This document shows, one piece after another, positions 2,249 through 36,064 of a stretch of DNA of 36,519 nucleotides. The notes below the pieces were generated by a model that was given only the letters and a program-made list of their open reading frames with translations, made no database searches and was not told where the DNA came from. The position numbers were made by a program, and so were the translations under genes. Source of the stretch: a virus. Positions within the stretch are counted from its first letter, which is position 1, and every line of letters begins with the position of its first letter. Location of the stretch: the IMG/VR virus record IMGVR_UViG_3300047325_000071, positions 1 through 36,519 of that record, one strand, 5' to 3'.

Positions 2249-3310
2249 TTATTGAATGCAAATATAGGTGACGGTGACACCGCTTAAGGCAGAATTGTAA
2301 TTGAAGGTTGCCTGCGTCTGGGTGACCGAGCCAGTGACGATATAGGAGCTGCCCGACGTACTGTTCGCCACGCAATAGGGTGCGGATCCCCAAGTCGTGC
2401 CGAATAAAATCGTGGAGGAAGTCTGCGAAGTGCCGACGGTAAATTTACCTCGTGTGTCCAAGGAACCGCTACTAATAGAAGCGCATCCAGTGCTGCAGGT
2501 AGGTGCAGATGTTCCGCCCGCCGCATTGGCAATATGGCCGCTAATACCAAGGGTGTTTGTATCAGGACGATATATTCCCCCCCCGCCCGTGGGCGTGGCG
2601 CTTGTCGGACTGAAAGTGGCTGCTTGCGATGCTCCTGCAACTATCGGATTAGCAACATACGAGGGCGCTCCAGAGCTTCCGGTATTATTTGCCAAAACAG
2701 TCTCCCCTGGGGCGGAAGTTAAAGTGGCAGTGACAGCACCCGTTGATGCTGAATTACTTAAAATAGTGCCATCCCCGGTAAAGCTGGTGACGCCGGTGCT
2801 CAACGGCGCGATCTGGCTTTCAATCTGGAAATTTGTCCCATCAAAGGCCACACAAACGAACTGATGCAACTGGATTTCCCCCCCCACGAGTCCGATCGGC
2901 CCAGACACACTTTCCTTCGTTAATGACTCAGCCCCGATGCCATTAATGCTTAAAGTCGCTGCGCCTGTATTTGCCGCAGTGGCCTTGAAGCAATAGACCT
3001 CGCCCGTCACATAGGAGATCGGGTAAGACGTGTTGGGGGGTGTAAGCGTGATGGCGTTTGCCGTGCCGCCCACCGTATATTGCGCATTCGCCCTGTCCCA
3101 CCAGCGCTGCAGCGCGCCGAGGGTCGCACGGCCTATGGGCTCGACCTGATTGAAATAGGTGCCCGCTGGCCAGCCGTTAGGACTGGGCGACGTGTTCGAG
3201 GCGTCGGTCTCTGAATAGGTGCCAGAATTGAATTCGGCAGCCTGTATAGGACCAGAGGCCAGAATCAGGGCTAAAAGCCCGGAAAGAAGGGTTTTAAAGG
3301 CGTTTTTCAT
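2249..3310 (-). CDS. tail-fibre-like protein with an N-terminal signal peptide
   Basis: From the ATG at 3310 (AGAGG just upstream, better than the ATG at 3325) the product is 353 residues. It begins MKNAFKTLLSGLLALILASG followed by PIQAAEF, a convincing secretory signal with cleavage near AQA-type residues 25-27. The mature part is Ser/Thr/Gly/Ala-rich with beta-type repeats. It starts with a segment (GRATLGALQRWWDRANAQYTV) like the N-terminal region of some phage tail fibres. The last 50 residues (PYCVAN ... YICIQ) resemble the C-terminus of the protein encoded at 23185-23676. It is the first gene of the lysis-end block, behind a possible promoter. Signal peptides are unusual in tail proteins. 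It may be a fibre, or an exported moron-type protein. Confidence 0.55.
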   Translation of the reverse strand: MKNAFKTLLSGLLALILASGPIQAAEFNSGTYSETDASNTSPSPNGWPAGTYFNQVEPIGRATLGALQRWWDRANAQYTVGGTANAITLTPPNTSYPISYVTGEVYCFKATAANTGAATLSINGIGAESLTKESVSGPIGLVGGEIQLHQFVCVAFDGTNFQIESQIAPLSTGVTSFTGDGTILSNSASTGAVTATLTSAPGETVLANNTGSSGAPSYVANPIVAGASQAATFSPTSATPTGGGGIYRPDTNTLGISGHIANAAGGTSAPTCSTGCASISSGSLDTRGKFTVGTSQTSSTILFGTTWGSAPYCVANSTSGSSYIVTGSVTQTQATFNYNSALSGVTVTYICIQ

Positions 3311-3446: not shown

Positions 3447-5333
3447 CTAGCGATATCCTCCATACACAGCACCAGCTCCTAATCCTTGCAGGGCATTCCC
3501 AACGGAAGTGGGTGCAGGATTGACAGCAAGAAGCGCAGCTCGGGTCTTTGCAGGGTCCTGTATAATTTCACGCATCTTTTTAACTACAGCTGAATTTGCC
3601 GATTCATATGGGAGCACTTTTCCGAGAAGAGGAAAATTTGCATTTACAACCCCACCTGTGCCACTAGCCAAAGCATTATTAGAGGCAAGATTGGAAAATG
3701 TATCAGAGCCTGCAGGCTTGAAAGCGGGGCTGTTGGTGAGATTCGAGCGTGCGGCATCTTTGTGTACATTAACAAGGGTATCATATTGCTCTGGTGAAAG
3801 TGCATCCTGAAGAGGCTGCCAACCATGGTAATCGGAATTTATCTGACCATTTTTTATTAAGCTTCCAAGTTTTGCTGGACTTAAGAAGAAATTTCCTTGT
3901 GCATCCTGAGAAGAGTTTTGAACCGTTTTAATAATATTCTGCATATTTTGCATTTGATTTATCGGTTCACTCAATTCACGAAATTTTTGCTGCGCCTGTG
4001 CGAAGAGTGGACTCTGTCCCTCTATGGCTTGTCCAAGGGCATGATTAATAGGCTGCATATAAGCCTTAACCGCAGGTGTAACAGCATTGTCCTGCATCGC
4101 CTTGGCTTGAAGATTATCTCTCATTTCCCTATAGGTTTGTACCAATTGGCTTTGTGGAACAGCCTTCGTGACCCCAGGAGTATTCATGCCTAATTGTTGA
4201 TTGATGGTAGGTGGAGACTCATTAGGAAGAGCAGCTGTTATTTTCGCTCTATAAGCCGTGAGCATCTGCCCTGCTTGAGTTCTTGGCCCCACCTCCTGAA
4301 TAGCCGCATCGATTTGGTCAAGAACTGGCTTTATGGCATCTGGATTTATGGGATTATTTTTTGCAAGCTGATAGAGCGGAGTGGTGGCGGCATCGCGGGC
4401 AGTTATAGCTTTTTGTATATCCGCTTCAGTACCAGCTACCTTTTGTAAGGCTGCCGTGCGAGCTTGATTCTGAGAGACTATAACGTCAGTGGGCTGCTCG
4501 CCAGCATTGAGACCTCTCTCAAGTTTAATAAGACCTGTATCACCAGAAGCAGTGCCTCCGGTAGGATTGCTACCCGGGACAAATTGCTGCGGATTCTCAA
4601 GTGTAGAGGCAGCACCAAACGGGTCGGAAGCGGCCCGAGCTACCGCAGTTTGGGCGAGTTTTTGCTGGCCGCTTTCAGTAAGAGGAGAAATAGCGCCATA
4701 AATTCCTTTAAGGAGCCCCCCAGCCGCAGGCGCGGCAATGGACCCGGCAATAGAGGCTGCTGTTTGGTAGTTTTGATTTAATCCACTCTCTTTCGCAGCC
4801 TCGCCCGCAGCAGACCCTCCGAGGGCCGCTTGATATTGTAAAGGTAAATTCTTTCCAAGAGCGCTTGGAACGAAATAAGAAGCTGCCTCTCCGCCAGCAG
4901 CAGATGAGGGAGCTGCCATTGCGCCACCTGTCGCCACAGCCGCTATAGGCTGTAAAATAGCCTGCTCTCGGTTTTCCCATTTATTTTGGGGTTGCGGCAC
5001 ACCAAGAGCGGTCAAACCCTCGCCGAACGGATTAACATAGCCTACAGATGGAGAAGAAGCTCGGATATCATCCCCCGTTATTTTACTGGCTGCCCAATCC
5101 CCTAAATCCCGGGTTTTATTTGCTATAAATGCCGGAGCATTCGCAGCAGCGGTGGCTAATGAAGTTGCTCCCTGCACACCTGCTCGACCTATAAGACCAG
5201 CTTGTCGGGATAAAAATCCAGTCACAGTGGAATTTGAATTGAAAGCATCGATCGCAGAATTCATTTCATCTGGAGATGCATCATCAGGAAAAAAATGAAG
5301 TTGTCCATTTTCATCGGTTACTTGCTGGGTCAT
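3447..5333 (-). CDS. large internal virion / DNA-ejection protein (putative)
   Basis: The product is 628 residues. It starts MTQQVTDENGQLHFFPDDAS, followed by an Ala/Gly-rich region with weakly hydrophobic stretches (residues 40-65 and 120-215, for example GGSAAGEAAKESG) and a long helical C-terminal half rich in Gln, Asn and Ala. This is the look of ejection proteins of short-tailed phages, which leave the capsid with the DNA and help form a channel through the envelope. It overlaps the upstream gene by four bases (ATGA). The coding sequence is visibly richer in A+T, with more AGA, TTA and ATA codons, than the capsid and portal genes, so it may have been acquired separately. Function is inferred from composition and position next to two other virion genes. 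Confidence 0.5.
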   Translation of the reverse strand: MTQQVTDENGQLHFFPDDASPDEMNSAIDAFNSNSTVTGFLSRQAGLIGRAGVQGATSLATAAANAPAFIANKTRDLGDWAASKITGDDIRASSPSVGYVNPFGEGLTALGVPQPQNKWENREQAILQPIAAVATGGAMAAPSSAAGGEAASYFVPSALGKNLPLQYQAALGGSAAGEAAKESGLNQNYQTAASIAGSIAAPAAGGLLKGIYGAISPLTESGQQKLAQTAVARAASDPFGAASTLENPQQFVPGSNPTGGTASGDTGLIKLERGLNAGEQPTDVIVSQNQARTAALQKVAGTEADIQKAITARDAATTPLYQLAKNNPINPDAIKPVLDQIDAAIQEVGPRTQAGQMLTAYRAKITAALPNESPPTINQQLGMNTPGVTKAVPQSQLVQTYREMRDNLQAKAMQDNAVTPAVKAYMQPINHALGQAIEGQSPLFAQAQQKFRELSEPINQMQNMQNIIKTVQNSSQDAQGNFFLSPAKLGSLIKNGQINSDYHGWQPLQDALSPEQYDTLVNVHKDAARSNLTNSPAFKPAGSDTFSNLASNNALASGTGGVVNANFPLLGKVLPYESANSAVVKKMREIIQDPAKTRAALLAVNPAPTSVGNALQGLGAGAVYGGYR

Positions 5334-6787
5334 TGCGCTACCAATTGTCCATTAACACGAATCCACTTCTGAATTTTTTGCTCATCATTGCTTGTGCTCA
5401 TACCCTTAAAGGGAGGGGTATTTTTGCGCGCAGCATCGATATAATCTTGGGTCTTATGCGCATCATAGAACTTTTGCGCGAAATCATCGGGGAGCATGGA
5501 ATTGCCGTTCTGCAGACGGTTCGCGCGGCCTCCGATGCTATTCCAGCCCTGAATCAAGTCCTGCCCCTGATTGAGCATGCCTTTGGCTTTCGTGAGGACG
5601 CTGAAATTCGCCTCCGGCGTATTGCCGGGATTGATGCCTTTCTCGAGCTGGTTCACGATTTCCGAACCGAATAATCGCGTTGCGGTGCCACCACCGATAT
5701 TGGCATTCGTGTCCTTCATCTGAGCGATCACGTCCTTTTGATGGGCATCCAGCGCGCGCTGCACATTTCCGAGATCGGACTTCACTTCAGGTGGCAGGCC
5801 ATTTGGGAACCATGCATTTAATTTTGCAAGATATTCGGGATTCTGCGCCGTGAAGGTGCCTGACTGCATTTTGTGGTAGGTGTCGATCAGGTCGTCGATT
5901 TGCGCATTCTCATTCGAGAAGCTTTTGCCCAGCGAGGCAAATTCCTGACTGCCCGCCTGCATTTCCTTCTGATTGGAAAGGGCCTGCTCCACCCCCTCCT
6001 TGGTATTCGGGAGGGCTGGCCATGCGGGCTGCCCACTCGGATCAGGCTTAAAAAATGGAAGCTGGTTTGCTTCGGGAATAATGGGCTTTCCATCAAACAA
6101 CTTTGGAACTCCGGATGCGGCCACCGAGGTGGATTTAGATACCTGATTAAGGACATCGTCGAGGTTCTGCGGCGGTACGTCCACATTATCGGGCTGCCCG
6201 TTCGGCATTATCTGCGGCGTGCGTGACGGCGGGGCAACCGGCGGCGCAGAGGATGCACCAGCGCCCGGCATAGGAGGCACGCCCAGCGGGGAACCCGAGC
6301 CGCTTAAAAGGTCACCTGCGCGGCCCCAGGTACCGTCAGCCCTCTGCACGATCCTCTCGCGCTCCTTGGCGGCAACCGTCGTCGGGTCATTTTCATAGAT
6401 AGACGTGGCTGTCGACGCCATGGTCTTGGGGTCGCGCGACATCATGGCGAAGCGCAATGCATTTGCGGCCATGGGATTCATCGCAGGCGAGCCGGGAGCA
6501 CCACCGGCAGGCGCACCGCCACCCGGAGCGGATGGATTCATGCTGCCATACATGGCAAGCATGGAGGGTTGCGCTGCAGATTGTAATTGCAGATTCATAA
6601 GATCACTAGCTTGTTTCGGGATTTCCGAAACGGCTTTACCTGCTGCCTGTAATCCAGATACTGCACCATAAGCAAGCCCCACCGGAACGCGCGATGGCCC
6701 GATCGGCTGAATATTTCCTAGTGCGTTTGCGCCTGCAAGCATGGCGAGGGCATCTGGGTTATTTGTAAGGTTTGAGAATAGTCCCAT
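5330..6787 (-). CDS. putative internal virion / ejection protein
   Basis: The 485-residue product starts MGLFSNLTNNPDALAMLAGA. It has a Pro/Gly/Ala-rich, Met-containing region at about 85-205 (GGGAPAGGAPGSPAMNP) and then a helical C-terminal half. The N-terminus MGLFS is shared with the protein encoded at 8282-8812. The gene overlaps both neighbours by four bases (ATGA), forming a tightly coupled run. In P22-like and N4-like phages, genes of this size between tail and lysis modules encode injected proteins. That is the best reading here, but no conserved domain is recognised. Confidence 0.45.
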   Translation of the reverse strand: MGLFSNLTNNPDALAMLAGANALGNIQPIGPSRVPVGLAYGAVSGLQAAGKAVSEIPKQASDLMNLQLQSAAQPSMLAMYGSMNPSAPGGGAPAGGAPGSPAMNPMAANALRFAMMSRDPKTMASTATSIYENDPTTVAAKERERIVQRADGTWGRAGDLLSGSGSPLGVPPMPGAGASSAPPVAPPSRTPQIMPNGQPDNVDVPPQNLDDVLNQVSKSTSVAASGVPKLFDGKPIIPEANQLPFFKPDPSGQPAWPALPNTKEGVEQALSNQKEMQAGSQEFASLGKSFSNENAQIDDLIDTYHKMQSGTFTAQNPEYLAKLNAWFPNGLPPEVKSDLGNVQRALDAHQKDVIAQMKDTNANIGGGTATRLFGSEIVNQLEKGINPGNTPEANFSVLTKAKGMLNQGQDLIQGWNSIGGRANRLQNGNSMLPDDFAQKFYDAHKTQDYIDAARKNTPPFKGMSTSNDEQKIQKWIRVNGQLVAQ

Positions 6788-15590: not shown

Positions 15591-15634
15591 TTATTGTAAA
15601 CTTTAGGCACGGTTATTGTAAGCTTTAAGCCCCG
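15591..15634. repeat. imperfect 22-bp tandem repeat after the scaffold gene
   Basis: Two adjacent units, each starting TTATTGTAA, match at 17 of 22 positions (15591-15612 and 15613-15634). The second unit includes the scaffold stop codon, so the repeat looks like a small tandem duplication of the gene end. The rest of this 186-base gap holds a short dyad around 15539-15558 (CCACTG/CAGTGG). I see no clear promoter. Confidence 0.55.
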
Positions 15635-16680
15635 AAGGCCTCGCGCATCTTCTTGGGATCATTGCTGATTTTTTCCAAGAAAACCTCGAAGTCATGGTCG
15701 CTCATACGGGCCACAGCGGCGCCCGTAATCTCGTCTGCCGGCGAGCTGCCGGTGCCACCGCCAAGGGACTTATTCTCACGCTGTCCCTGCGCGGCATTGC
15801 GTATCTTATCGGCCTCGCTCATCGGCGCGGGTGTGGGCGACGGAGCACCAGCTGGTGCAGGCGTTGCCGTATAGGCGAAACCACGGGCTTTCGCAAGCCG
15901 CATCACCGTTTCGGCAGGGTTTTTGCCCTGCGCCATGGCGACATTTGCCAGCGTCATGGCATCCTGCATCAAGACTTCGTTAATGCTGAAACGGGCCACC
16001 GACCCGTCAGGATTCACGACCCGGTTATTATCGTAACCCAGCTCCCGAAGCTCTGCTGCGCGCTGCCCCTGAAGATGGGCCGCAGCTGCCTGATATTCGG
16101 GCGAATTACCGACCTTTGCGTCATAGTCGGGCAGCGTCTGCAAATAGTCGCGCTCGAGCTGCGCGGCTTTGTTGCCGACGGTCTGAAGCTCATTAACCAC
16201 TCGCTCATTCGCCTTGGCGGTTTCCGCCATGCGCTTAAGCTCCTGCACTTCGGCGACGGTCATTTTCAGGGCACCAAGGGCGTCCTTATCCGGGTCAGGG
16301 GCTTGCCGTTGCGGTGCGGGCTTTTCCTCGCCGGTAATGGCCTTCAGCAGTTTGTCGAGGCGCTGCTCGGTCTGCTTGCGCAGCTCACGCTCCTCGTGGA
16401 GCGCGCCGTGCGGTACCATGCTCTGCTTTTCTCCGGGCGCCGCCGTCGGTGCTGGCGTTGGTGATGGTGCTCCGGCAGGCGCTGCCGTAGGGGCAGGCGT
16501 GGCCGCTGGAGCGGGTGCGGCTGTAGGTGCTGGGGTAGGCGCAGGCGTGGCCGTCGGATCGCCCTGTGCGGCGAGCTTTTCAAGCCTTACTGCCTCCTTG
16601 GTATCGGCATCGCTAGCCTCGTCGTTTTTAAGGAAAGTCTGTTCTTCAGGCGTTAGGTTCTCTTCAAATGATTCAGGCAT
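15625..16680 (-). CDS. capsid scaffolding protein (putative)
   Basis: The product is 351 residues, acidic at the N-terminus (ESFEENLTPEEQTFLKND). A Pro/Ala/Thr linker at about 42-82 (repeats of PTPAP and PTAAP) is followed by a helical charged region with RELRKQTEQRLDKLLKAITG, a second small Pro/Ala block near residue 280, and an acidic/basic C-terminus (SDHDFEVFLEKISNDPKKMR). Lying directly upstream of the major capsid gene, with high helix content and low-complexity linkers, is typical of scaffold proteins, which shape procapsids and are then lost. There is no recognisable protease motif. Confidence 0.7.
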   Translation of the reverse strand: MPESFEENLTPEEQTFLKNDEASDADTKEAVRLEKLAAQGDPTATPAPTPAPTAAPAPAATPAPTAAPAGAPSPTPAPTAAPGEKQSMVPHGALHEERELRKQTEQRLDKLLKAITGEEKPAPQRQAPDPDKDALGALKMTVAEVQELKRMAETAKANERVVNELQTVGNKAAQLERDYLQTLPDYDAKVGNSPEYQAAAAHLQGQRAAELRELGYDNNRVVNPDGSVARFSINEVLMQDAMTLANVAMAQGKNPAETVMRLAKARGFAYTATPAPAGAPSPTPAPMSEADKIRNAAQGQRENKSLGGGTGSSPADEITGAAVARMSDHDFEVFLEKISNDPKKMREAFGA

Positions 16681-17036: not shown

Positions 17037-18899
17037 CTACATTAAAATGATAAATGCGTCCTCGTCGTCTTCACGACGCCGGCGCTCCTGCGCCATTTCT
17101 ATTTCGGCGAGCATCTGGGCTTCCGAAAGGCTATCCATGGCCTCGAGCTTCCTGCGCGTCGGACCGCCGATGGATAGAGGGGCCTGCGTGGGCGTAGGAG
17201 GGGGCACAGGCGTCCCAATGAAGGGAGGCATGACCGTATAGTCCAGCGCAGCTCCCCGCGCCCGTGCGACCTGCACAGGCTGCTGCGAAAACCAGTCGTC
17301 GAGGTTGACGGTACCGGAGGAAAATACTACCGGCAACACGATCGACGTATAGCCGGGCGCAGGCATGCGCATAATCTGCGCAGGCGCATCGCCTATCCAT
17401 TTGTCGATGGTAACGATTTCCTGCGCCGCAATGACGGGCTGGAATACGTTAAAGCCGAAATTTACCCCCGCACGCGACCGGCTGACGTCTGCCTCTGACG
17501 CTATCCATTTATCAAGCGTAACTGGCTGCGGAGCGAAGGGCTCCACGCTGATGCCTGACGGATTCGGCTGGCCCGCCCGACTGATGATGTCGGGTATAAT
17601 GGGGTGCCATTTATCAACCGTTATAATTTCGGCTGCAATTGGCGGCTGAAGCGGATAAATCTGCTGTCCGGTGGGCTGCACTGCAATGGAGCGACGGGCC
17701 TGATCGGGTAAAATTGGCTGCCATTTCTCAACGTAGATGACTTCGTTCGTGACGACGCCTTCAGGATAGAGCTGCTGGCCTCCATCGATCGGGCGCTTTG
17801 CCACCAGATACTGGTCAGGGCGGATGGGCTCCCACTTATCAGGAAACACCACCTCTTTCGTCACAATGCCGAAGGGGTAAACCTGCAGGCCGGTGCCGAC
17901 CGGCTGACGGCGGAAAACTAGGTCGGGGATATGCGGCTGCCACTTGTCGGCATAGACCGTTTCTGTAGTCGCAATCCCGAAATCATAGAAGAAGGCCGGC
18001 GCAAGAGCTGCGCCGAATGCGAGCCGCACGATGACCTGCACATTCGTATCGTAATAGCTCGAAACGGAGGGGGTCGGTGCCGATGGCGTATAGGCGAGGA
18101 CGATAAGGCCGCCTGCGCCCGCGCCGCCGGTGCCACCATAGTCTGAGCCGCCACCGCCACCGCCATAATTTCCACCAGTCCCGCCATTACCCGATGCTGC
18201 AGACCCACCACCACCGCCGCCGCCGCCGCCGTGAGTGGCGTCCCAGTCGGCGCTGGTTGATCCATTGCCGCCAGCGCCGGGGAATGAACCGCCGCCGCCG
18301 CCACCGCCCGCAGAGCCGGCGCCGCCGCCTGCGGCGCCGCCCCCTGTGCCCGCGGACCCTACGCCGCCAGTGCCGCCGGTATTACCGCTGGGCGCATTAC
18401 CTGCAGTGGCGCTCGTTCCGTTCGACCCGCCGCCGCCGCCACCACCGCCGCCTACTGCACTGCCACCGTTTTTACCGGCCCCGTTTAAGCCCGCTGCGCC
18501 ACCGCCGCCGCCGCCGGCGTTACCCGTAGTTGTGCCGCCAGATCCGCCAGCGGTCTTTACAGTGCCCACACAATTGGCAACCAGACCACCTGCTCCGCCT
18601 GAGGCGCTGACCGACGAAACGCCATAATCCGCTACAAGCGTGGCGGAATTTTTAAACTGGGTTTTTGTTGCCGAACCCGCCGCTCCTATCTGTATCGCTT
18701 CGCTTGTGCTCGCTGCGTCGGATAAATTGGTTATCTGCGCGAATGCGCCGCCGCCGCCACCACCGCCGCCTATTGAAGTAGCCGAGTTGCCGTTGCCACC
18801 ACAGCCGATTGCGCTGACCGTATTATTAGACGGATTCCAATCTGATGGCAGTGTCTGCGGCGAGGTTGTTGAGGAGGTGTAATATACAAGTGTTGTCAT
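17037..18899 (-). CDS. glycine-rich adhesin-like virion protein with C-terminal DKW repeats
   Basis: The product is 620 residues in three parts. Residues 1-270 are a Gly-rich domain with many G-runs separated by short polar blocks, like the glycine-rich tail-tip/adhesin domain of phage proteins such as S16 gp38, where stacked polyglycine helices display receptor-binding loops. Residues 285-545 contain seven copies of a unit of about 35-45 residues centred on (V/Y)xDKWxPxxPD: YADKWQPHIPD, FPDKWEPIRPD, YVEKWQPILPD, TVDKWHPIIPD, TLDKW, TIDKW and NLDDW. The last 60 residues are Pro-rich, then acidic/basic and helical (EAQMLAEIEMAQERRRREDD). It is encoded within the head module, not next to fibre genes. 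Role in host recognition is inferred. Confidence 0.6.
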   Translation of the reverse strand: MTTLVYYTSSTTSPQTLPSDWNPSNNTVSAIGCGGNGNSATSIGGGGGGGGAFAQITNLSDAASTSEAIQIGAAGSATKTQFKNSATLVADYGVSSVSASGGAGGLVANCVGTVKTAGGSGGTTTGNAGGGGGGAAGLNGAGKNGGSAVGGGGGGGGGSNGTSATAGNAPSGNTGGTGGVGSAGTGGGAAGGGAGSAGGGGGGGSFPGAGGNGSTSADWDATHGGGGGGGGGSAASGNGGTGGNYGGGGGGSDYGGTGGAGAGGLIVLAYTPSAPTPSVSSYYDTNVQVIVRLAFGAALAPAFFYDFGIATTETVYADKWQPHIPDLVFRRQPVGTGLQVYPFGIVTKEVVFPDKWEPIRPDQYLVAKRPIDGGQQLYPEGVVTNEVIYVEKWQPILPDQARRSIAVQPTGQQIYPLQPPIAAEIITVDKWHPIIPDIISRAGQPNPSGISVEPFAPQPVTLDKWIASEADVSRSRAGVNFGFNVFQPVIAAQEIVTIDKWIGDAPAQIMRMPAPGYTSIVLPVVFSSGTVNLDDWFSQQPVQVARARGAALDYTVMPPFIGTPVPPPTPTQAPLSIGGPTRRKLEAMDSLSEAQMLAEIEMAQERRRREDDEDAFIILM

Positions 18900-33644: not shown

Positions 33645-33917
33645 ATGACCAAAGCAGTTTTGATTACCACCGAGTTCCGCGGCGTCTTTTTCGGCTACCT
33701 CAAAGAGGATAAAAAGGCACCCGAGCAGATTACGCTGACCAACGCGCGCAATTGCATTTACTGGTCTGCCAGCGTGGGTGGCTTCCTTGGGCTAGCCGCA
33801 AAAGGTCCCGATAAGGAATGCCGCATCGGCGTGCGCGTGCCGGAAGTTACACTTTACAAGGTGACCAGCGTAACGGCAGTCGAGGACGCCGCTGTTAAGG
33901 CGTGGGAGGCTGCCTAA
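33645..33917 (+). CDS. conserved phage protein, resembles DUF6948
   Basis: The product is 90 residues: MTKAVLITTEFRGVFFGYLK, then ITLTNARNCIYWSASVGGFL, GLAAKGPDKECRIGVRVPEV and a helix ending KAWEAA. The T-E-(F/Y)-R-G-V-F-F-G, L-x-x-A-R-N-x-I-Y-W, G-x-x-G-L-A-x-x-G-P and R-I-G-x-x-V-P motifs recur in small early proteins of many phages, which I recall as DUF6948. Their function is not established. AAAGGA precedes the ATG, and the stop overlaps the next start (TAATG). Confidence 0.65.
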   Translation: MTKAVLITTEFRGVFFGYLKEDKKAPEQITLTNARNCIYWSASVGGFLGLAAKGPDKECRIGVRVPEVTLYKVTSVTAVEDAAVKAWEAA

Positions 33918-34417
33918 TGCAACAGGCAATCATTACAAAGGCGATTGCAGCGCGAGCTGTGCTCTCCGGCGCTTGCCGAGTTCCCAAAGTGGGGGAACCT
34001 GTAAATACCCTTTCAACTAGCGATCTGGCGTGGGCTGAAACAGTGGGATTCACGCCAGCGGACATAGGGGCATCTTTGCCCCTGTGGACGCTGTACGGGT
34101 ACGGGTACGGGTACGGGTACGGGGACGGGTACGGGTACGGGTACGGGTCCGGGTACGGGGACGGGGACGGGTCTGGGTCCGGGTACGGGTCTGGGTCCGG
34201 GTACGGGTCTGGGTACGGGTACGGGTACGGGTCCGGGTACGGGGACGGGTACGGGTACGGGTACGGGTCCGGGTACGGGTCCGGGGACGGGTACGGGTAC
34301 GGGTACGGGTACGGGTACGGGTCCGGGGACGGGTCCGGGTACGGGTCCGGGTACGGGTCCGGGGACGGGAAAAAAGACCTTGGAAAGATAGTCCTCGCCA
34401 TTTTCACCAGCAAGTAA
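33917..34417 (+). CDS. early protein with a 92-residue (Y/S/D)-G dipeptide repeat
   Basis: The product is 166 residues from ATG 33917 (TAATG overlap with the previous stop). Residues 1-59 are a normal-looking soluble domain (MQQAIITKAIAARAVLSGAC, then VNTLSTSDLAWAETVGFTPA). Residues 60-151 are 46 consecutive X-Gly dipeptides with X = Tyr, Ser or Asp, and residues 152-166 are a basic/hydrophobic tail (KKDLGKIVLAIFTSK). The N-terminal part resembles small phage early proteins ending in I-G-A-S-L-P-L-W. The repeat could form a flexible or phase-separating segment. No homologue with this exact design is known to me. Confidence 0.65.
   Translation: MQQAIITKAIAARAVLSGACRVPKVGEPVNTLSTSDLAWAETVGFTPADIGASLPLWTLYGYGYGYGYGDGYGYGYGSGYGDGDGSGSGYGSGSGYGSGYGYGYGSGYGDGYGYGYGSGYGSGDGYGYGYGYGYGSGDGSGYGSGYGSGDGKKDLGKIVLAIFTSK
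34094..34369 (+). repeat. 46-unit hexanucleotide tandem repeat inside an early gene
   Basis: The run is made of 46 in-frame six-base units: TACGGG most often, with TCCGGG, GACGGG and TCTGGG variants. All six frames are open across it, so antisense and shifted ORFs here are artefacts. Because the unit is two codons long, gain or loss of units keeps the reading frame. Confidence 0.95.
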
Positions 34418-34944: not shown

Positions 34945-35192
34945 GCCGCTATATGGGGAAAAGAGATGCTGCGCTTTATCACTTTAAGTCCCGCGAGGAC
35001 TCAAAAATTATTAGCATTGATGCCGCATTGCTGGGGCAATCTGATAAAGCCTATCTCATTGACACAGGCGATACGGATAAGAAGGGAAAACCTATAGGAA
35101 AATGGGTGCCTAAAAGCCTCAGTGAATATGATGCCACCGACAAGACGTTGCAGGTGGAAGAATGGTTTGCGGTGAAGGAGGGACTTGTATGA
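34941..35192 (+). CDS. early phage protein of unknown function
   Basis: The product is 83 residues: MSRYMGKRDAALYHFKSRED, then AALLGQSDKAYLIDTGDTDK, GKWVPKSLSEYDATDKTLQV and EEWFAVKEGLV. The S-D-K-A-x-L-(I/V) ... W-(V/I)-P-K-S ... E-W-x-A-x-K-x-G-L pattern recurs in small phage proteins next to recombination genes. Its function is unknown to me. The ATG and stop overlap both neighbours by four bases, so it is part of one coupled operon with the exonuclease. Confidence 0.6.
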   Translation: MSRYMGKRDAALYHFKSREDSKIISIDAALLGQSDKAYLIDTGDTDKKGKPIGKWVPKSLSEYDATDKTLQVEEWFAVKEGLV

Positions 35193-36064
35193 GCGCCACA
35201 CAGCAGCATAAAGGCCTCGAGGCCGGCATCTACTTCGGGTTGCCGGAGGATATTTACCACGCCGACCCTGCGGTCTCGCGCTCGGATATCGTGAATATGC
35301 TCGACACGCCTAATACTTACTGGAAACGGTCATGGATGAATCCGGCGCGCGAGAGCGGCATAAAGAGCGGGGAAATGGTCTACGGCAGCGCCTTCCACAC
35401 CATGCTTTTCGAGCCCCAGCACTTCGAGGAGCGCTTCTTCGTTTTCCCCCTCGACAAGTTCGTCCACGGCAAGGCGATGGTCACGGACGGGCAATACAAC
35501 GAGCTGGTGAACAGCATCAAGGTGCTGCGCGCCGGCAAGGACTCGTCGCTATTTCTCTCGGGTGGACTGCCGGAGGTGACGATCGTCTTTGATGACGACG
35601 GGGTGCGGTACCGGACCCGGCACGACTATTTCGGCATCGTGGTGACGACGGAATTCAAGACCGCCGTCAGCCTCGAGGAATGGCACCTGAAGAACGAATT
35701 CCGCAAGCGCGGGCTGGATATCCAGATGGCTCTTTACCTGCGGTCACGGGTGCGCATCCGGGAGCAGATACGCGCCGGCACTGCCCACGTCTATGGCAAG
35801 GTCGAGCCAAGATTTTTTAAGCAGTTCATGAACGAGGAGCTGAACGACTTTATTTTCATTTTCCAGCGCAAGACCGACCCGCACCCCTTCCTGCCGCTTA
35901 TGCCGGAGCAGGACACGCAGGACAGCGGCGAGCGCAAGATCGAAAGCACGAGGCGCATCTACAAGGAATATATGCGAATTTACGGGCCAAACACGCCGTG
36001 GCCAGTGAGCGAGGGGCGCGTGAAGCGCTTCTCGATGATTTACGGCATAGCCGACGAAAGGTAG
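35189..36064 (+). CDS. RecE-like PD-(D/E)XK exonuclease
   Basis: The product is 291 residues from ATG 35189, with GAAGGAGG upstream; the earlier in-frame ATG at 35162 lacks one. The N-terminal segment GIYFGLPEDIYHADPAVSRS is typical of RecE/DUF3799-type nucleases, followed by GSAFHTMLFEPQHFEERFFV. Active site: the Asp of TRHDYFGIVV, the Glu and Lys of TTEFKTAV (E-x-K in place of the commoner D-x-K), and the Gln of LDIQMALYLR. The enzyme would chew 5' ends to leave single strands for annealing by RecT, encoded four bases downstream. The length fits the family. Confidence 0.8.
   Translation: MSATQQHKGLEAGIYFGLPEDIYHADPAVSRSDIVNMLDTPNTYWKRSWMNPARESGIKSGEMVYGSAFHTMLFEPQHFEERFFVFPLDKFVHGKAMVTDGQYNELVNSIKVLRAGKDSSLFLSGGLPEVTIVFDDDGVRYRTRHDYFGIVVTTEFKTAVSLEEWHLKNEFRKRGLDIQMALYLRSRVRIREQIRAGTAHVYGKVEPRFFKQFMNEELNDFIFIFQRKTDPHPFLPLMPEQDTQDSGERKIESTRRIYKEYMRIYGPNTPWPVSEGRVKRFSMIYGIADER

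Follow-up and report, generated by a model that had tools for sequence, protein, structure and literature searches.

A putative Sm-like gene and a hypervariable X-Gly array gene form a recurrent two-gene cassette in phages

The 36,519-nucleotide viral stretch analyzed here (the window), which is the entire IMG/VR virus record IMGVR_UViG_3300047325_000071, carries two overlapping genes on the same strand: one for a small protein of the Pfam family DUF6948 and, directly after it, one whose product consists largely of X-Gly dipeptides (Table 1). The two share a TAATG stop/start overlap, which likely couples their translation, and the purine-rich hexamer shortly before the second ATG is likely the start signal of the array gene. 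Such an overlap is also present in the close relatives that we read closely. The initial annotation had regarded the array gene as an early phage gene, a plausible setting given the exonuclease VIII-like gene in the window and the genes neighboring the cassette in related phages, which include those for Erf, Sak4, and RecT annealing proteins, RecE/exonuclease VIII, and SSB.

Table 1. Features of the array locus and its surroundings (positions in the window)
Feature	Position	Strand	Remarks
Putative Sm/LSm-like partner gene (Pfam DUF6948, PF22253)	33645..33917	+	90 aa, net charge +2
Shine-Dalgarno-like GGGAGG	33904..33909	+	Within the Sm-like gene, 7 nt before ATG 33917; read from sequence
TAATG stop/start overlap of Sm-like and array genes	33915..33919	+	Read from sequence
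X-Gly array gene	33917..34417	+	166 aa
Head domain, 59 residues, GAC..PKVG..DLxWAE..PLW	33917..34093	+	Non-repetitive; predicted helical (weakly), pLDDT about 67-77
46 in-frame X-Gly units	34094..34369	+	All perfect, uninterrupted; predicted disordered
Basic C-terminal tail KKDLGKIVLAIFTSK	34370..34414	+	Charge +3; predicted helix at residues 155-164
Exonuclease VIII-like gene	35189..36064	+	Downstream in the same gene cluster; phrog_412, E 1.9e-32

The codon count reproduces exactly what the initial annotation had reported, that is, 46 in-frame (Y/S/D)-Gly units with GGG as the glycine codon in all 46. The X residue is Tyr in 26 units, Ser in 13, and Asp in 7, encoded by TAC (26), TCC (10), GAC (7), and TCT (3). 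The earlier remark that only the first codon of each unit varies is right and can be refined: variation is confined to positions 1 and 2 of this codon, and its third base is nearly fixed (C in 43 of 46 units). Tandem Repeats Finder likewise returned a single period-6 array (34093-34369; 46.2 copies, score 393, no indels). The array itself, together with the same array in relatives, excludes a chance origin. Residues 61 to 152 are predicted to be disordered (pLDDT about 26), in agreement with the flexible segment proposed before, and the protein combines the low complexity and predicted disorder expected of an intrinsically disordered protein. We rejected a TrAA12-like identity (Pfam PF22807), which reached 18.5 bits against a cutoff of 30.9 and covered the repeat region only, and set aside the PDB profile matches of the array protein as low-complexity hits to linkers and dipeptide peptides. 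PHROGs gave no match for the array gene or the window's Sm-like gene, and an Rfam scan of the window gave none either. Elsewhere in the window, low-complexity segments appear as a Pro/Thr/Ala-rich region (16300-16600) in the protein at 15625-16680 and as the Gly-rich N-terminal region of a 620-aa protein (17037-18899).

The key to the locus, absent from the initial annotation, is the upstream gene. Its product matches PF22253 (E 5.1e-22; 78.2 bits against a gathering cutoff of 27), a family without assigned function for which our literature search found no paper; the X-Gly array partner falls outside this family. An AlphaFold2 model built from 59 homologues (mean pLDDT 95.7) displays the five-stranded small barrel of the Sm fold, a likeness of moderate strength: nearly all top Foldseek matches in the PDB are Sm/LSm proteins (E about 1e-3 to 1e-2), led by 3by7 (E 1.7e-3, prob 1.00, TM about 0.55), whose description mentions structural similarity to Sm/LSm RNA-binding proteins, and matches in a viral library include DUF6948 and “Sm-like domain” proteins. 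The nearest solved fold, 3by7, is just 15-17% identical; we take it to be an Sm/LSm-like protein of putative cyanophage origin, and we know of no X-Gly partner for it. Since no solved Sm protein in the PDB is a significant sequence match for the DUF6948 product, and the Pfam search returned no Sm family, we call this product Sm-like by fold rather than a proven Sm protein, and we propose with moderate confidence that DUF6948 genes encode small Sm/LSm-fold proteins. Overall, these proteins are mildly basic, with a mean charge of +1.2.

As judged from gene order, the DUF6948/Sm-like gene and the X-Gly array gene form a near-obligate pair in phages. An X-Gly array follows the Sm-like gene in 72 of 80 DUF6948 loci and in 76 of 80 loci of a second subfamily, where these counts, like those below, come from partly redundant and often metagenomic loci and are not independent events. 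The DUF6948 figure comprises 67 loci with a Y/S/D-rich array close by on the 3' side and on the same strand, three with an array of another alphabet (L374, where it is N/Y/D, L390, and L413), and two in which the contig end falls within the array (L376 and L391). Among the DUF6948 loci without an array, two have a truncated partner gene (L433 and L452), and the contig ends too soon in the remainder. In the second subfamily, 71 of the 80 loci have an array, one is a fusion, and four are cut by contig ends; the four apparent exceptions turned out to carry X-Gly arrays as well, built with Ala, Thr, or Trp. Viewed from the array side, DUF6948 lies directly 5' in 70 of the 101 loci with enough 5' flank and a diverged Sm-like gene does so in about 27 more, bringing the total to about 97 of 101. 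Three of nine diverged proteins tested score above the Pfam cutoff, and the others were linked by profile comparison, with a moderate first link (probability 76, E 2e-5). The Sm-like gene lies downstream of the array in L097, and no Sm-like gene was seen beside the array in L050, L177, and L231.

In one locus (L148), DUF6948 (E 1e-22) runs on into the array within a single ORF (4963-5619); the junction lacks an in-frame start codon, and the stop is followed by a terminator-like hairpin. This sole clear fusion has an Hfq-like architecture, although a sequencing frameshift may explain it. An N-terminal array fusion in L441, L444, and L445 is ambiguous, as an internal start is present; in L444 (2790-2960), a Cys-rich segment (MCPCGHHEGYHNDKGVCLLSRNCRCKG) lies between the short array and the Sm-like domain.

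Homologues of the window's head domain were recovered both by a head search in IMG/VR and through the partner gene, and 13 other loci share the conserved head (alignment A4). Among intact close relatives, none lacks an X-Gly tail: the {Y,S,D}G array follows ...PLW and the gene sits directly 3' of DUF6948. These homologues spell the array with other codons, namely, GGC with TAT/TCT/GAT in L371, GGT with TAC/TCC/GAC in L369, and GGG in L370 as in the window. Hence, even where heads are 85-90% identical, the glycine codon is GGC, GGT, or GGG throughout an array while the Y/S/D-Gly alphabet is kept, so that the codons are lineage specific and the dipeptide alphabet, not the DNA repeat, is what the compared sequences conserve. 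The Sm-like genes of the three compared relatives carry 39 to 45 silent differences in 88 codons; that is, each array has stayed internally homogeneous while its flanks drifted. The initial annotation had read the constant GGG as evidence of recent slippage rather than of protein-level selection alone. We reject this pure-slippage reading on account of the alphabet shared across different codon sets, which instead makes a strong case that amino acid composition is under strong selection, with homogenization acting on top.

Because array-pattern scans bias codon statistics, we repeated these on arrays found solely via the partner gene. In these 67 arrays (1990 units), Y (818), S (646), and D (433) dominate, each other residue occurs at most 20 times, and 64 arrays contain all three main residues. 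Departures from the array majority amount to 25% and 34% at unit positions 1 and 2 but to 1.7% and 1.5% at positions 3 and 6, and GGC is used in 46 of the 67 arrays. Such amino acid-changing variation with almost no silent variation is an unusual signature, suggestive of rapid turnover under composition selection. The commonest codon types track the GC content of the locus, which is 44% for GGC arrays with T as the third base of the X codon and 57-58% for GGC or GGG arrays with C. Across 187 arrays, unit order is near random (YY, 865 observed versus 863 expected; DD, 324 versus 373), and Ala units number 27, whereas independence of positions 1 and 2 would predict 492. Given that identical neighbors are not enriched, single-unit slippage alone does not fit; longer within-array repeats are in excess (7.7 versus 5.5 units), pointing to multi-unit duplication, and the window array has no excess of longer internal repeats. 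Most hits of a scan of cellular genomes for the Y/S/D-Gly pattern were unrelated tracts with one X residue and mixed codons: (SG)n, (DG)n, or (YG)n.

The initial annotation's expectation that unit number can vary in frame is borne out between near-identical phages, including cultured ones. The flanks of L401 and L405 are 99.8-100% identical, yet the arrays have 22 and 15 units; the upstream flanks of L408 and L410 are 99.5% identical, and their arrays (32 versus 47 units) are unrelated and cannot be aligned. Most compared genomes are probably short-read assemblies in which the exact unit order may hold errors, and on these comparisons the arrays evolve faster than all surrounding sequence. Pectobacterium phages Taid, Ymer, and Amona have 99.7-100% identical Sm-like genes next to array genes of 258, 222, and 204 nt, and Rheinheimera Barba isolates differ by a single 6-nt unit at two places. 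Besides these, cultured carriers of the cassette include Rhodobacter phage RcapNL, Iodobacter phage PhiPLPE, Vibrio phage IKEMa6-1, Eggerthella phage PMBT5, and Chlorobiaceae CV-1-33. The partner gene matches 115 records from the Barba phages alone. The alphabet shifts slightly, to include N and C in PMBT5 and N in Barba.

Taken together, we infer a two-gene phage cassette in which the Sm/LSm-fold protein is encoded first and would act with a separately encoded, disordered Xaa-Gly arm (Xaa being mainly Tyr, Ser, and Asp), to which the window's version adds a 59-residue head and a basic tail. By analogy with Hfq, whose acidic or Gly-rich C-terminal tails modulate how nucleic acids bind the Sm core, the array would serve as an Hfq-tail-like arm provided in trans, its composition conserved and its order and length rapidly rewritten; we regard this explanation as evenly poised between right and wrong. 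Selection would keep the composition (aromatic, polar, acidic, and glycine residues) rather than the order of units, so that gain, loss, and shuffling of units would be tolerated, with third bases staying homogeneous within each array. The target might be RNA or, alternatively, the single-stranded DNA handled by the neighboring annealing-recombination genes. In Escherichia coli Hfq, the acidic tail is a nucleic acid mimic that exerts autoregulation on the Sm core (PMC5606850), and the number of GGFGGQ repeats matters in Acinetobacter Hfq (PMC11617691). The phage system resembles Hfq in that an Sm-fold protein goes together with a disordered segment that is acidic or rich in Gly. However, its segment is usually a separate overlapping gene (the same polypeptide only in L148), alternates X-Gly with Y, S, or D, and is hypervariable, and no sequence match between Hfq and the Sm-like protein was detectable. 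Another likeness is offered by the tandem-repeat proteins of Borgs, which include Sm ribonucleoproteins with N-terminal repeats (PMC9879509): these, too, are fast-evolving, perfect in-frame repeats that create disordered regions on mobile elements, some of them on Sm proteins. Borg units are, in contrast, longer and unique to each region, whereas the phage cassette uses a single conserved dipeptide alphabet in a dedicated gene across many phages.

Somewhat more tentatively, the cassette may be an undescribed two-component system of tailed phages, in which composition is selected and fast unit turnover rewrites order, length, and even codon set; it would be the phage equivalent of RNP assemblies with an Sm core and low-complexity tails. 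Our literature search found no dedicated hypervariable X-Gly partner gene (subscription papers and preprints lay outside its scope) and no paper on the array peptide motifs; within the literature searched, the gene pair as a kind thus appears new, Sm proteins with repeats being already known. The pair is spread over many tailed phages, cultured ones included, and has so far been unannotated or misannotated. One partner has an Sm-like fold, and the other is a natural low-complexity protein of minimal makeup, almost nothing but Gly, Tyr, Ser, and Asp, so that it becomes directly testable how function can rest on composition rather than on order.

A related possibility, partly compatible with the Sm-arm explanation, is that the array drives phase separation of a body in which the phage replicates or processes RNA, the Sm-like protein being either its core or a client. 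The predicted disorder and the regular spacing of Tyr by Gly, Ser, and Asp over several tens of units are in keeping with such a scaffold; however, certain arrays are short (15 units) or carry Ala, Thr, or Trp instead of Tyr/Ser, and we consider this role unlikely. Somewhat less credible still is a hypervariable binding or decoy segment, in which array change itself would be selected, as happens in antibody loops, one possible purpose being to bind or escape a changing host factor. Such a role would account for arrays that differ despite near-identical flanks and for positions 1 and 2 varying about 20 times as much as third positions, and Tyr, Ser, Asp, and Gly form a binding-prone alphabet. 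Minimalist antibody libraries use Tyr, Ser, Asp, and Ala, the last of which phage arrays nearly exclude. In bovine IGHD segments, an unrelated system with a similar alphabet, repeated Gly-Tyr codons provide binding diversity (PMC7366855). Against this, the near-random order and similar composition in unrelated phages suit selection at the level of composition rather than of epitopes, and alternating Gly would yield a flexible chain without a fixed paratope.

Chance fixation of the array as a neutral by-product of slippage or as a passive linker seems very improbable: repeats do expand by whole units, and one-unit differences were observed, but the near-obligate linkage to the Sm-like gene, the same alphabet in different codons, the exclusion of Ala, and the many genes that are almost entirely array all speak against it. 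We give even less credence to a DNA-level element, be it a G-quadruplex former or a recombination hotspot, with the protein as a by-product. The GGG every 6 nt in the window fits a G-quadruplex motif, and recombination genes lie nearby; yet the GGC and GGT arrays of relatives have no G-tracts while peptide alphabet and frame are kept, which leads us to reject G-quadruplex formation as the general function, and a DNA element would leave the protein-level alphabet unexplained. An assembly artefact, suggested by the several contigs that stop inside the array, can practically be dismissed as the source of the array's existence, since it occurs in the cultured phages RcapNL, PhiPLPE, PMBT5, Rheinheimera Barba, and Pectobacterium phages, and intact close homologues of the head without an X-Gly tail, which together with misassembly might have marked a one-off event, were not found; the unit order of metagenomic arrays is less certain.

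Contigs often stop within the array (e.g., L376, L377, L381, L383, and L384 of IMG/VR); the locus probably breaks short-read assembly, leaving the cassette undercounted. In public phage records, array genes are misnamed (“adsorption protein” or “lamprin”), lack a gene call, or are annotated in a wrong reading frame (MAMALAMAL...), as seen in L460 (Eggerthella PMBT5; 2782-3108), L455 (2731-3045), L461 (2879-3124), and L457 (1161-1406).

The domains that flank the array differ from phage to phage, which means that heads and tails must contribute functions beyond the Sm-arm model. Relatives of the window have C-terminal tails resembling its own (KDIAVRIAAV and DDIGKKILAIV). A different C-terminal domain, without a match in Pfam, recurs 3' of the array in L425, L428, L432, L453, and others (YWLxTIxxFAxxW..GATIAFWRS..NGG..GPLxLC..LHATxxPxKWKGxRWWxVAL.GEV..DEEKYGxLxREIxGE), and another one, likewise without a Pfam match, follows the array in L138, L234, L241, and L367 (..LTLxPCFVxK..FAHGETLxxA..WHHxLTGSCEMGR..). 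In L386 (3339-4700), three tandem pentapeptide-repeat genes lie between the DUF6948 gene and head-domain paralogues whose YG-rich tails are degenerate, and this type of neighborhood may include other low-complexity proteins as well.
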